A DNA stretch of 45,852 bases from Saprospiraceae bacterium (GTDB lineage Bacteria; Bacteroidota; Bacteroidia; Chitinophagales; Saprospiraceae), in assembly GCA_020631455.1 (NCBI GenBank), contig JAHDHF010000006.1, forward strand, positions 1 to 45,852. Direction: 5' to 3'. The notes under the pieces were generated by a model that made no database searches, was not told where the DNA came from, and saw only the letters and a program-made list of their open reading frames with translations. A program made the position numbers and the translations under genes. Below, piece after piece: positions 1-42,866 of this stretch. Within the stretch, counting starts at the first letter, position 1; each line of letters begins with the position of its first letter.

Positions 1-32
1 ATCAGCGCGGTGCTGCGAAGCAGCATGGCCCA
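1..32 (+). repeat. Dispersed structured repeat, copy A (3' end only)
   Basis: This is the 3' end of the intergenic repeat family, cut off by the window edge. It reads ATCAGCGCGG, then a hairpin TGCTGC-GAA-GCAGCA, then TGGCCCA. Copy C near 10540-10570 has the same flanks but a different stem (TGCACC-GAA-GGTGCA), so pairing is kept while sequence changes. Its function is unknown. Confidence 0.75.
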
Positions 33-5267: not shown

Positions 5268-5542
5268 GGGGCTGCCCGCGCAAAGCGCGGTCGGGCTGTA
5301 CGGCACTCTCTCCGAGTTCCTTACAGTCACTCGGAGTTCAGACAACACCTTCCATCCCTCAGCCTTTTGACCACAGAGTGTGTAGAATCGCTCATCGGGG
5401 GCGCGATGACATGAGTAGTGGACAAGCGCTGCGTAGTGGTAGCCGCAAGGCTAGACGCGAGTGCGCAGCATGAGCGGCCGAGCGAAGAGCGAGCCACGAA
5501 GCATAGCGACCGCCACGAGTAAGACGAGTGGCGGATGGCCCA
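5268..5542 (+). repeat. Dispersed structured repeat, copy B (full length)
   Basis: This is the most complete copy and fills most of the 380-base gap between the NYN gene and the dehydrogenase. The 5' module has GGGGCTGCCC, hairpin CCGCGC-AAA-GCGCGG, TCGGGCT, stem CTCCGAGT/ACTCGGAG and CATCCCTCAGCC. The 3' module has GTGGACAAGCGCTGCG, hairpin TAGCC-GCAA-GGCTA, GACGCGAGTG, GGCCGAGCGAAGAGCGAG, GCATAGCGACC, hairpin CCGCCAC/GTGGCGG and GGATGGCCCA. An open frame through it reflects GC-rich repeat sequence and resembles no protein. Apart from this element, no gene is seen in the gap. Confidence 0.85.
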
Positions 5543-6930: not shown

Positions 6931-7297
6931 GGGGCTGACAGGAATCGACGGGAGAGTCCGTTTTGTAGTGAGCATGTCGGGAGATGTTCGACACACCCGT
7001 AAAAACGTTCGTTCAACAATTCAAATGGCGAGTCTAACTACGCCCTCGCTGCCTAATTAAGTTTACGCAAGCGATGTGCCGCTGATGTGATGTCTGATAT
7101 AGTCATCAGTCGCATATAACCAACTTTCAGGCTGCTAGTAGGAGTGTCTTTGTACTATTAGTGTATTAAGAGATACGGTCATGACTTGGCTTTGTTTGAC
7201 AAGCTACCCATGACTCGACAATCCAAACGTTAAACTAAGCATGTAGCGCGCTGCATTACCCTTTGTCCGGACGAGGGTTCAACTCCCTCCAGCTCCA
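6931..7297 (+). ncRNA. ssrA: tmRNA (ssrA)
   Basis: This is the transfer-messenger RNA that rescues stalled ribosomes with SmpB. The tRNA-like ends are clear: the 5' GGGGCTG pairs with the 3' CAGCTCC, and the T-arm-like block AGGGTTCAACTCCCT is intact. The discriminator A is followed by CTT, so the CCA tail is not encoded. The internal reading frame encodes the degradation tag. The molecule is single-piece, not permuted. It stands alone on the plus strand between a minus-strand gene and the lipoprotein operon. Confidence 0.95.
7027..7056 (+). other. tmRNA proteolysis tag reading frame
   Basis: The frame reads GESNYALAA then TAA, close to the GENNYALAA-type tags of other Bacteroidota. With the alanine charged on tmRNA the appended peptide would be AGESNYALAA. 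The hydrophobic ALAA end is the usual ClpXP degron. The resume codon GGC is assigned by comparison with known tags. Confidence 0.85.
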
Positions 7298-7306
7298 CTT
7301 TATTGA

Positions 7307-10268: not shown

Positions 10269-10570
10269 GGGGCTGCCCCTTCAATAGAAAACCTCCTAGA
10301 TTTTTTTCTAGGAGGTTTTTTATTTCGGGTCGGGCTATGCGGCACTCTCTCCGAGTTCATTTTATTCACTCGGAGTTCAAACAACGCCTCCTATCCCTCA
10401 GCCAAATAAAAGCTACATTTAATTTATTAAGAAATCAAGTTTGGAAAAAGTACTTGGACAAGCGATGGGAAGGGGCGCGAATGAAATGAAGCGCTCATCT
10501 CGATTTATCGAGATGATGAGCGAATAGCGAAACCCTGGATCAGCGCGGTGCACCGAAGGTGCATGGCCCA
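10269..10570 (+). repeat. Dispersed structured repeat, copy C (full length, terminator inside)
   Basis: This element fills the 364-base gap before murF. It shares with copy B GGGGCTGCCC, GGTCGGGCT, CTCCGAGT/ACTCGGAG and CTATCCCTCAGCC. Its first hairpin is replaced by a strong terminator, and the spacer in the middle is AT-rich. The 3' module is diverged: TTGGACAAGCG is present, the next hairpin is lost, CGCTCAT/ATGAGCG replaces another, AGCGAATAGCGA is kept, and the end is TGCACC-GAA-GGTGCA plus TGGCCCA as in copy A. Confidence 0.82.
10288..10322 (+). terminator. Terminator of the HEAT-PPIase operon
   Basis: AAACCTCCTAGA pairs with TCTAGGAGGTTT around a six-T loop and runs into TTTTT. It lies 30 bases past the HEAT-PPIase stop codon and inside the first hairpin position of repeat copy C. 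Confidence 0.9.
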
Positions 10571-17804: not shown

Positions 17805-18092
17805 GGGGCTTACCGCTCCATCATGGTATTCAGTCGCGGTCAGGCTGCTTCGAGGCTCGCTGTTCGCTCGGCCACAGCGCTACGCTTGTGTCTGTAGCTC
17901 GCTTTGCTCGCACACCTCTGCGCATCCTTAAGCCGCTGGGTGCAAGATACTCTCAACAGCTGCATGCGCGAAGGATGGGAGCAGCGCGAGCGTCATTTTT
18001 TTGACGCGAAGCGGACGCCCAAACGAAGTGCGGGCGGCTAGGTTACCGTACTGCGGACAGCCTGGTCGCGATTATTCGCGACGCGCCTAAAT
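17805..18092 (-). repeat. Diverged GC-rich repeat block, copy D
   Basis: This block fills the 383-base gap between the divergent cytochrome c and TetR genes. In reverse orientation it shares the core GGCCGAGCGAACAGCGAG with copies E-G, but its flanks differ. It contains several hairpins: GCGTCA-TTTTTT-TGACGC (17990-18007) and GTCGCGA-TTAT-TCGCGAC (18065-18082). CATCCTT/AAGGATG segments could also pair at long range. GC content is far above the adjacent genes. A small open frame inside (17789-18004) is rejected as repeat sequence. The boundaries are uncertain. Confidence 0.6.
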
Positions 18093-25026: not shown

Positions 25027-25148
25027 TGGCCATCCGCCCCATTTTACATTTGTAAAATGGGGCGGCGCTATGTTACGCAGCTCGCTGTTCGCTCGGCCGC
25101 ATCGTTTCACTCGCGTCTGGCAAAGCCACTGCTCCACAGCGCTATGGC
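25027..25148 (-). repeat. Dispersed structured repeat, copy E (short form)
   Basis: Read on the minus strand it has GCGCTGTGGAGCAGTGG, a hairpin TGGC-TT-GCCA, GACGCGAGTGAAACGATGCG, GGCCGAGCGAACAGCGAG, CATAGCGCC, a 13-15-bp hairpin (CCGCCCCATTTTACA with its complement) and GGATGGCC. This corresponds to the 3' module of copy B only. It lies between the RND pump and the glycosyltransferase gene, ending 33 bases before the latter's start. Confidence 0.85.
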
Positions 25149-26582: not shown

Positions 26583-26711
26583 GTGGACAAGCGCTGCGCA
26601 GTGGTGCAGTTTGCTGCAGACGCGAGTGAAACGAAGCGGCCGAGCGAACAGCGAGCCACGAAGCATAGCGACCATTTTATTTTTTTATTAAAAGATAAAA
26701 TGGATGGCCCA
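26583..26711 (+). repeat. Dispersed structured repeat, copy F (short form)
   Basis: GTGGACAAGCGCTGCG, hairpin TGCAG-TTTG-CTGCA, GACGCGAGTGAAACGAAGCG, GGCCGAGCGAACAGCGAG, CCACGAAGCATAGCGACC, an AT-rich hairpin CCATTTTAT/ATAAAATGG (26672-26703) and GGATGGCCCA. The last hairpin is AT-rich here and GC-rich in copies B and E, so only pairing is conserved. It lies between the converging glycosyltransferase and murB genes. Confidence 0.88.
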
Positions 26712-40501: not shown

Positions 40502-41872
40502 ATGAACAAATTCATTACGACACTCAAGAATATTTGGAGCATTGAAGATCTCCGAGGCAGAATCTTATTCACCCTCGGACTTTTGCTCGTCTATCGTTTC
40601 GGTTCATTCGTTGCTTTACCTGGAATTTTACCTAAAGTTCTTAAAGAAGCAACTCCTGACGCTTCTGGAGGTATTCTGGATTTGATAAATGTGTTCACAG
40701 GTGGAGCATTTAATCAAGCCTCCGTTTTTGCTCTTGGTATTATGCCTTACATCACGGCATCTATCATTGTTCAGTTACTAGGTTTCGCTGTTCCGTACTT
40801 TCAAAGACTTCAACAGCGAGAAGGTGAAAGTGGTCGAAATAAGCTAAATCAAATCACTCGATGGGGTACTGTCCTCATTACTTTAGTTCAAGCTGGGGGC
40901 TACTTGACTTACATCAGTCAGTCTTTTCCAGACGCAATTTCAACAGAAATACCGCAGCCAGTATTTTGGTTAAGCAACGTCATTATCCTTACAGCTGGTA
41001 CAATATTCTCAATGTGGTTAGGTGAAAAAATTACTGATAAAGGTATCGGTAACGGTGTTTCACTTTTGATCATGGTCGGTATCATTGCAACTCTTCCAAT
41101 GGCATTATGGAACGAATTCAATACTTCGATTACTACTGGAGCCATTCCAAAGTTCGTGATTGAGATCGCTGCTTTGATAGCAATTGTAATGGTTACAGTT
41201 CTTCTTGTTCAAGGTGTGCGTAAAATTCCGATTCGCTTTGCCAAGCGGATGGTTGGAAGAGCTTCGACTAACGTACCAAGTTCAGGAAAGCGTGATTACA
41301 TTCCGATTAAAGTAAACGCTGCAGGAGTAATGCCTATCATTTTTGCACAAGCCATCATGTTTGTGCCACCAGTGATAGCTCCACTCTTTTCAGGTAATGC
41401 AACGCCGTCACCCGATTCATGGTTAGGTATGTTGTCGGATTTCACATCAACACCCTACAATATTATATATTTCTTCTTAGTTGTAGTCTTCACATACGTC
41501 TACACTGCACTTTTGGTTAATCCAAAACAGCATGCAGAATATCTAAAACGACAAAACGCTTTTGTACCAGGAATAAAGCCTGGAAAAAGTACAGAAGATT
41601 TTATCGATACTGTAGTTACACGAATCACACTCCCAGGCTCAATTTTCCTTGGTCTAATTTCAATTCTCCCTGCATTTGCAGCAGCGTTTGGAGTTAATAT
41701 AGCTTTTGCTATGTTTTTTGGTGGCACTTCACTTTTGATTATGGTTGGAGTTGTTCTTGACACACTTCAGCAAATTGAAAGTCATCTTGTTAGAAGACGC
41801 TATGACGGATTAGTTCGATCTGGCAGACTGAAAGAGAAAGGTGGTATCAACAGTATTGGAGCGAGCGTCTAA
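40502..41872 (+). CDS. secY: Protein translocase subunit SecY
   Basis: SecY, 456 residues with ten membrane helices, is the central pore of the Sec translocon with SecE and SecG. YRFGSFVALPGI, the plug region, FALGIMPYITASIIVQLL, GIGNGVSLLIMVGI and HLVRRRYDGLVRSGRLKEKG are diagnostic. Genes in this window that need Sec (T9SS cargo, lipoproteins, OmpA) depend on it. The operon is interrupted after it by repeat copy G. Confidence 0.98.
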   Translation: MNKFITTLKNIWSIEDLRGRILFTLGLLLVYRFGSFVALPGILPKVLKEATPDASGGILDLINVFTGGAFNQASVFALGIMPYITASIIVQLLGFAVPYFQRLQQREGESGRNKLNQITRWGTVLITLVQAGGYLTYISQSFPDAISTEIPQPVFWLSNVIILTAGTIFSMWLGEKITDKGIGNGVSLLIMVGIIATLPMALWNEFNTSITTGAIPKFVIEIAALIAIVMVTVLLVQGVRKIPIRFAKRMVGRASTNVPSSGKRDYIPIKVNAAGVMPIIFAQAIMFVPPVIAPLFSGNATPSPDSWLGMLSDFTSTPYNIIYFFLVVVFTYVYTALLVNPKQHAEYLKRQNAFVPGIKPGKSTEDFIDTVVTRITLPGSIFLGLISILPAFAAAFGVNIAFAMFFGGTSLLIMVGVVLDTLQQIESHLVRRRYDGLVRSGRLKEKGGINSIGASV

Positions 41873-41905
41873 AGTGTTGTGATCTTCAAGATCCAATACA
41901 TATTG

Positions 41906-42018
41906 TGGGCCATCCGTTCCTCGTATTCACTCGTCACGGTCGCTATGCTTCGTGGCTCGCTATTCGCTCGGCCGCTACGCGTCTTCGGCTTCGCCTCACC
42001 ACTTCGCAGCGCTTGTCC
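41906..42018 (-). repeat. Dispersed structured repeat, copy G, inside the ribosomal cluster
   Basis: Read on the minus strand it has TTGGACAAGCGCTGCGAAGTGG, given here as GGACAAGCGCTGCG, hairpin GGC-GAA-GCC, GACGCGTAGCG, GGCCGAGCGAATAGCGAG, CCACGAAGCATAGCGACC, a weaker hairpin CCGT/ACGG and GGATGGCCCA. The loop ACGAGTGAATACGAG resembles ACGAGTAAGACGAG of copy B. It occupies most of the 184-base secY-map spacer. Confidence 0.88.
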
Positions 42019-42056
42019 AATAAGGTCAATACAGTTCAACTAAAACTGAAAGCAAC

Positions 42057-42866
42057 ATGATCTTTTATAAGACAGACGAAGAAATTGAAAAAATCAGAAC
42101 AAGTTGTCTCCTAGTTTCTAAGACACTAGGACATGTTGCTTCACTTATTGCTCCTGGTGTTACAGGAAAACACTTAGATCAAGAGGCAGAACAGTTTATT
42201 CGTGATCATTCAGCGGTTCCAGGCTTCAAAGGCTATAATGATTTTCCTGCTACTCTTTGTATTTCAATTAATGACGGTGTAGTTCATGGAATTCCAACAG
42301 ATATTCCATTCGAAAATGGCGATATTGTCAGTATCGATTGTGGGGCAATCCTTGATGAATTTTATGGCGATTCAGCTTATACATTTCCACTAGGAGATAT
42401 AGAGCCTGATGTCTTTGATCTACTAAGTACAACCAACCAATCCTTGTACAAAGGCATTGCAATGGCCAAACCCGGAAACAGACTTGAAGATATTGGGTAC
42501 ACCATTCAGCAATATGCTGAAAAAGAAAAAAAATACGGTATAGTAAGAGAGCTCGTTGGACATGGTATCGGTAAGAACCTGCACGAAGCACCCGAAGTAC
42601 CAAACTATGGAAAAAGGGGTAGAGGTGTACTTCTGAAAAATGGACTTGTGATTGCGATTGAGCCAATGATTAACCTCGGAACGCGAAAAGTCAAGCAAAG
42701 TCCAGACAATTGGACAATCATTACACAAGACGGAAAACCGTCTGCACATTACGAACATACCGTTGCAGTCCGTAAAAATGGACCAGATATTCTCTCTGAT
42801 CATAGCTTCATAGAAGAATCATTGAAAAAGAATGATGCAATTGTGCAAATCCCACTAAAAAGTTAG
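42057..42866 (+). CDS. map: Type I methionine aminopeptidase
   Basis: MAP has 269 residues; it removes the initiator methionine from nascent proteins. Metal ligands of the pita-bread fold are visible: Asp in DIVSIDCGAI, Asp in FYGDSAYTF, His in VGHGIGKNLHE, Glu in IAIEPMI and Glu in HYEHTVAV. It follows secY across a repeat element and precedes infA, as in many Bacteroidota. Confidence 0.97.
   Translation: MIFYKTDEEIEKIRTSCLLVSKTLGHVASLIAPGVTGKHLDQEAEQFIRDHSAVPGFKGYNDFPATLCISINDGVVHGIPTDIPFENGDIVSIDCGAILDEFYGDSAYTFPLGDIEPDVFDLLSTTNQSLYKGIAMAKPGNRLEDIGYTIQQYAEKEKKYGIVRELVGHGIGKNLHEAPEVPNYGKRGRGVLLKNGLVIAIEPMINLGTRKVKQSPDNWTIITQDGKPSAHYEHTVAVRKNGPDILSDHSFIEESLKKNDAIVQIPLKS

Follow-up and report, generated by a model that had tools for sequence, protein, structure and literature searches.

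The 113-nt repeat in the secY–map gap, here called copy G, is a member of a dispersed family of non-coding multi-helix elements. The family is probably, at somewhat better than an even chance, maintained as DNA, with copy G read through without a dedicated role. About 460–690 copies of the family are present in its own genome of 2.9 Mb, and among the genomes searched the family is restricted to Saprospiraceae. It is apparently undescribed so far and is best called a kind of dispersed structured intergenic repeat, with REP/BIME as the closest known kind. The interest of copy G lies less in its position between secY and map than in the family to which it belongs.

The window, i.e., the whole stretch of 45,852 nt that was analyzed, is contig C113 of a draft assembly of 2.9 Mb in 323 contigs (G000). 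The closest named relatives of the window SecY were mostly Saprospiraceae assemblies (65–69% identity), and the genes around secY and map include those for L15, S13 and RpoA. A tmRNA gene was recognized at 6931–7300 (RF00023, 115.3 bits). The earlier note had placed a repeat copy in reverse orientation between secY and map, and this location was exact to the base (Table 1). The spacer comprises 184 nt (41873–42056) between the secY stop at 41872 and the map start at 42057; copy G lies in it antisense to its neighbours, 33 nt past the secY stop. On the minus strand, the complete copy reads GGACAAGCG...GGATGGCCCA (also given as GGACAAGCGCTGCGAAGTGG...GGATGGCCCA). A GC-rich hairpin followed by a T run, as in an intrinsic terminator or attenuator, was not found on either strand of 41800–42120, nor was a sigma-70-like promoter found in this interval by a scan whose reach does not extend to Bacteroidota promoters.

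Table 1. Copy G, its helices and neighbouring genes, and further copies of the family (window coordinates unless a locus is named).
Feature	Position	Strand	Remarks
secY	40502–41872	+	456 aa, upstream neighbour; PF00344, E 2.6e-103
map, methionine aminopeptidase	42057–42866	+	269 aa, downstream neighbour; PF00557, E 1.4e-42
Copy G, whole element	41906–42018	-	5' end at 42018, 3' end at 41906; covariance model 103.9 bits, E 1e-22
P0 5' arm GGAC, element nt 1–4	42015–42018	-	pairs with 41908–41911, central A.G mismatch
P1 5' arm CGC TGC, element nt 8–13	42006–42011	-	RNAalifold and covariation; pairs with 41941–41948, TA bulge
GNA/GNA internal loop, 5' side GAA	42003–42005	-	G and A conserved, middle base free
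P2 5' arm GTGG	41999–42002	-	pairs with 41952–41955; variants GTGG/CCAC, GTAG/CTAC, GCAG/CTGC
hp1, T GA GGC(GAA)GCC GA A	41984–41998	-	GAA triloop, tandem GA; arm-exchange test; hypervariable yet self-complementary
hp2, CGC(GTA)GCG	41973–41981	-	arm-exchange test and covariation
Core hairpin, C GA GC(GAATA)GC GA G	41956–41970	-	conserved across genera
P2 3' arm CCAC	41952–41955	-	covariation
GNA/GNA internal loop, 3' side GAA	41949–41951	-	G and A conserved, middle base free
P1 3' arm GCA TA GCG, element nt 71–78	41941–41948	-	RNAalifold and covariation
hp3, close to 3' end	41914–41939	-	arm-exchange test; length varies most among copies
P0 3' arm GGCC, element nt 108–111	41908–41911	-	covariation, own copies and other genera
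Other full copy	5420–5542	+	covariance model
Other full copy	10456–10570	+	covariance model
Other full copy	17805–17934	-	covariance model
Other full copy	25027–25148	-	covariance model
Other full copy	26585–26711	+	covariance model
rplO–secY copy, Saprospira	L348 (reverse complement) 1102–1216	antisense	equivalents in L347, L349, L350

The abundance of the family was estimated in two ways. A search of the genome with a 20-nt core, allowing up to 3 mismatches, returned 458 matches (219 + 239), compared to 4 + 0 for the reversed control. The covariance model detected 175 copies in 743,729 bases (0.74 Mb) of stretches from the same genome; the extrapolated value of about 690 copies per genome is an upper figure, since the stretches had partly been selected for carrying copies. 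Both strands were used about equally. Several contigs of the assembly start or end in copies, and thus the repeats probably break the assembly; window positions 1–32 are the 3' end of a further copy. At 5289–5364 and 10328–10403, a diverged subfamily (reverse complement GGCATAGGGATAG...GGATGCCCCA) adjoins main-family copies in opposite orientation, so that closely spaced inverted pairs are formed. Elsewhere, an 18–20-nt palindrome (CCCGAMTWCTCAGGG and its complement) is nested in element loops (L189:3836–3979, L192:10936–11123, L184:493–621).

Beyond the own genome, the element was present in 13 of 120 genomes searched (own included; E ≤ 0.001), and all 13 belong to Saprospiraceae. The Saprospira genomes G080, G120, G121 and G123 carried at least 145–149 matches each, and G122 and G124 of the same genus carried none; in the genus of G085, element counts per genome were 9, 39, 5 and 0. 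In 400 kb each of G080 and G120, the covariance model detected a total of 214 copies (E ≤ 0.05); scaled up, this corresponds to about 1,100 copies in each genome. G080 corresponds to Saprospira grandis str. Lewin, since the element coordinates on its second contig equal those on plasmid NC_016936.1. In three Saprospira plasmid records, the element is not annotated, and the gene table, itself incomplete, lists nothing under the copies. No Rfam family matched at gathering score, and copy G gave only one sub-threshold chance hit at E up to 10. The element had no match in the phage collection, and no description of it was found in the part of the literature that the search covered.

Rather than a simple palindrome, the element is an assembly of seven helices: the paired ends, two stacked long-range helices and four hairpins. 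In copy G, the order on the minus strand from 5' to 3' is P0 (GGAC), P1 (CGC-TGC), GAA, P2 (GTGG), hp1, GA, hp2, GC and the core hairpin, followed by P2' (CCAC), GAA, P1' (GCA-TA-GCG), A, hp3, AT, P0' (GGCC) and CA. Among 150 copies of the own genome, 96.8% of the cells were paired and both sides had changed in 443 cells, compared to a shuffled mean of 100, with slid controls pairing at 18–57%. In other genera (79 copies, eleven genomes), the paired share was 97.2%, with 369 doubly changed cells versus 102 after shuffling and 32–50% pairing in slid controls. These alignments lean towards the model because they were fitted to it. In a model-independent arm exchange, in which 3' arms were swapped among copies, hp3 showed 6.69 bp observed versus 1.90 (sd 0.17), hp1 3.70 versus 2.45 and hp2 3.34 versus 2.14. 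Given 16 copies, RNAalifold recovered P1, P2, hp1, hp2, the core hairpin and hp3 unaided and missed P0. The latter had been set by hand from the sequences and was tested afterwards; compensatory changes were seen in A2 and A3, e.g., CCAC...GTGG in L192 and L260. Folded alone, copy G gave no signal compared to dinucleotide shuffles (z about -0.7 on both strands), i.e., its fold is visible only by comparison. The unpaired core (AGCG, the GNA/GNA loop and CCGAGCGAAYAGCGAG) was conserved across genera. In some Saprospira copies (L356:30608–30770, L356:20348–20469), a further repeat module, GACAACAAG-hairpin-CAGTTCGACGACC..., stands in place of hp3 or comes after it. A hammerhead ribozyme had been considered from TGATGA...GAAA seen by eye in subfamily B; its layout did not fit, Rfam made no such call, and the candidate was dropped.

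The loops of the element are C-GNA-G and GNYA, and they are strand-specific. Among triloops of hairpins with at least 4 pairs, 80 of 140 were GNA and 3 TNC in the own copies, and 52 and 1, respectively, of 110 in other genera. The G..A loops of four bases comprised 20 GNYA versus 6 GNRA in the own copies and 7 versus 1 in other genera. RNA hairpins prefer GNRA loops. DNA mini-hairpins have loops of the form GNA or GNNA, in which N can be any base (PMC4686876), and this is the loop grammar of the element; the mini-hairpins of the d(GCGAAGC) class are short oligonucleotides, whereas the element combines many of them in one natural genomic unit. The folding energy did not separate the two forms, with a mean z of -1.87 using RNA parameters and -1.54 using DNA parameters for the GNA strand, and the complement strand folded less well (z -0.97). 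The share of G.T among standard pairs was 1.3% and 3.8% (2.0% when one column is left out), which is low for an RNA. From the loop types and this low share, we infer with moderate confidence that folded single-stranded DNA, more than RNA, would be the selected form.

The history of single sites was followed in Saprospira strains with 95–98% identical flanks, i.e., outside the genus of G000, which is the only member of its genus among the genomes compared; the results thus describe sites other than that of copy G. Over their first 400 kb, G080 and G120 align collinearly for the most part, at about 95–97% identity. Of the 150 best copies, taken in either direction, 87 sites held an element of comparable length, 7 initially counted as empty, 32 fell into other classes and 24 were without collinear flanks. 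Alignment showed each of the seven candidates to be an occupied site, a shortened one or one with a different filling; none was cleanly empty. Across 50 orthologous chromosomal pairs, flank identity averaged 96.7%, and 10 elements were less than 80% identical. On three collinear Saprospira plasmids, the site was occupied in the same orientation in 31 of 38 comparisons and never empty (4 other, 3 without collinear flanks). Hairpins at orthologous sites were mostly either identical or replaced as blocks, with fewer point changes: hp2 had been replaced in 29 of 37 plasmid pairs, and hp3 showed 3 exact inversions. In the long-range helices, 75 base pairs had changed on both sides and were still paired, 10 changed on one side were still paired and 12 were unpaired in one copy. 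At these sites, the copies stay where they are, and helices are exchanged as matched units. In yeast, template switching between the arms of inverted repeats homogenizes the arms and inverts spacers (PMC8604942); template switching or recombination between copies would produce the pattern of block replacement by analogy. Since arm homogenization alone could make perfect hairpins, the inference of selection for hp1–hp3 is weakened.

By heuristic gene calls, on which all context counts rest, 141 of 150 own copies lay outside genes. Between tandem genes of the own genome, 57 of 75 copies were antisense to those genes (p 7e-6), and Saprospira showed no such bias (21 to 19 and 20 to 24). The element lies with its 3' end closer to the adjacent gene (median 20 nt, versus 89 nt for the 5' end), and the 3' end faced a gene end in 86 of 131 cases, with a median distance of 14 nt in those classes compared to 20 nt overall. 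Copy G, antisense to tandem genes with its 3' end shortly past a stop codon, is in the commonest arrangement of its own genome. Copies also occupy convergent and divergent gaps, and on the Saprospira plasmids they are found inside operons, e.g., purD–purN, paaA–paaB and paaC–paaD.

Comparing the secY–map spacers of related species, which the earlier note had proposed as a check, gave lengths of mostly 10–25 nt in the other Bacteroidota retrieved and of about 0 to 300 nt within Saprospiraceae. Copy G had no counterpart at this junction in the other family members examined, twelve of which carry the element at other sites (G007, G009, G013, G029, G030, G035, G036, G066, G072, G085, G089, G125), and the insertion is thus lineage-specific. 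The junction of copy G is a spacer of variable length that tolerates extra sequence. In Saprospira, infA directly follows secY and map is not there; an antisense copy lies instead between rplO and secY, past a terminator-like hairpin. Four genomes share this position, and the G123 copy differs from the others in its core hairpin and hp2. L115, L116, L131, L032 and L138 from other Saprospiraceae carry different GC-rich inverted repeats in the secY–map gap; the junction seems to gather insertions. Two options had been put forward for copy G: tolerance by read-through, or action as a processing site or attenuator by which map-infA-rpoA levels would differ from those of the spc genes. Tolerance is the best reading, with copies in many operons, the typical arrangement of copy G and no terminator found nearby; the alternative gained no positive support, and the element is missing from the junction in other family members. 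Nothing found shows copy G regulating neighbouring genes; a local effect on map-infA-rpoA may still exist.

Several known repeat systems share properties with the element. A REP is defined as a 20–50-nt palindrome preceded by GTAG (PMC8266576). Like REP, BIME and REPIN sequences, the element is present in hundreds of dispersed, intergenic, hairpin-forming copies, sometimes as inverted pairs and within operons, and probably has single-stranded DNA as its relevant form. It differs in its length (about 113 nt in copy G, about 97–190 nt overall), its seven helices and its paired ends (GGAC...GGCC), with no GTAG-headed palindrome, and in that some carriers are without any Y1/RAYT (TnpA-REP) gene. 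ERIC/IRU, RUP, BOX, Correia and other MITE-like repeats are non-coding intergenic sequences of 100–150 nt that occur in both orientations and within operons. The element resembles them in these respects but appears to lack long terminal inverted repeats: the pairing of its ends (P0) spans just 4 positions, too few for an ordinary TIR. Flanks showed no excess of direct repeats of 2–8 nt, and thus no target-site duplication as in a DDE-type MITE, and clean empty sites between close strains, which mark a recently active transposable element, were not seen in G080/G120 or on the three plasmids. Further differences are the multi-branch fold and the replacement of helices at fixed sites. No larger ORF-bearing autonomous element bounded by two ends was recognized; element ends that stood alone were explained by contig ends, diverged subfamilies, chance matches or Ns. 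Integron attC sites are folded DNA past stop codons, variable in sequence and conserved in structure, as is the element; that it lies outside cassette arrays, between convergent or divergent genes and within the ribosomal cluster, speaks against attC identity. With the structured RNA families of Rfam, the element shares a covarying multi-branch architecture, but no family model matches it.

A function at the RNA level, as a processing, stabilizing or protein-binding structure of transcripts through which copy G would modulate map-infA-rpoA expression, is a possibility that we regard as rather unlikely. The stability of the fold with RNA parameters, the position of most copies shortly past gene ends and the conserved Saprospira copy beside secY are consistent with it. 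However, the loops are of the GNA and GNYA types, not GNRA or UNCG, no terminator was found and the secY–map site is not conserved. Moreover, the folded strand is mostly antisense in the own genome, so that the mRNA carries the less well folding complement, albeit with no such bias in Saprospira. Quite unlikely is the absence of function at any level, with hairpins as mutational by-products, template switching mimicking covariation and copies as remnants of an old burst. Block replacements and some local hairpin inversions do outnumber point changes at orthologous sites, and template switching is known to have such effects. On the other hand, P0, P1 and P2, whose arms lie far apart, stay paired when changed (75 compensated versus 12 unpaired), and the unpaired core is conserved across genera, which together need selection or recurrent copying from intact elements.

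Mobilization by a RAYT (TnpA-REP) or an IS200/IS605-type Y1 transposase, as for a REP/REPIN or BIME family, would agree with the high copy number, the intergenic sites, the ssDNA-like hairpins, the closely spaced inverted pairs and the one Y1_Tnp gene of the own genome. It is nevertheless highly improbable: that gene encodes a short IS200-like protein of 144 aa, the REP palindrome is absent, and the presence of Y1 genes does not track the element, with G013, G072 and G066 carrying the element without any Y1 (PF01797) match and G122, G124 and G126 having Y1 genes and no element. RAYT/Y1 was rejected as the mobilizer on this pattern of presence and absence. Just as little credence is given to the idea that copy G was recruited as an insulator or attenuator of the operon boundary between spc and alpha. 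Both G000 and Saprospira have an antisense copy at a break of the ribosomal cluster, but the two genera use two different junctions and other carriers are without a copy there; at one copy per 4–6 kb, any gene cluster should contain copies in some of its long gaps.

Maintenance of the family at the DNA level is the most likely course. As single-stranded DNA, the strand GGACAAG...GGATGGCCCA would fold into a closed seven-helix structure held by mini-hairpins with GNA/GNNA loops, tandem G.A pairs and the paired ends. Copies would stay put in intergenic gaps over long times, and whole helices may be swapped between copies, occasionally inverted, via recombination or polymerase template switching, so that the sequence turns over while the fold stays. 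Copy G would have entered an already loose secY–map spacer at the spc/alpha boundary and would be read through in antisense orientation, presumably neutral for map-infA-rpoA. A bolder idea, entertained tentatively and with low probability, is that the copies are genome-wide folded-ssDNA sites where entire helices are swapped or inverted without leaving the site, by an enzyme or by a recombination pathway dedicated to the task. If true, about a thousand Saprospira sites would keep one architecture while their sequences turn over, and copy G would be such a helix-exchange site inside the ribosomal supercluster.

The element is a warning that covariation alone is no proof of a functional RNA. Dispersed bacterial repeats are usually small palindromes, some of them tied to a known transposase, whereas here genomes of a single bacterial family can each carry a closed seven-helix structure hundreds to about a thousand times. 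Compensatory changes are visible between strains at the same site, and the cultured strains of Saprospira grandis make it testable what folds, what binds or exchanges it and whether operons respond to it.
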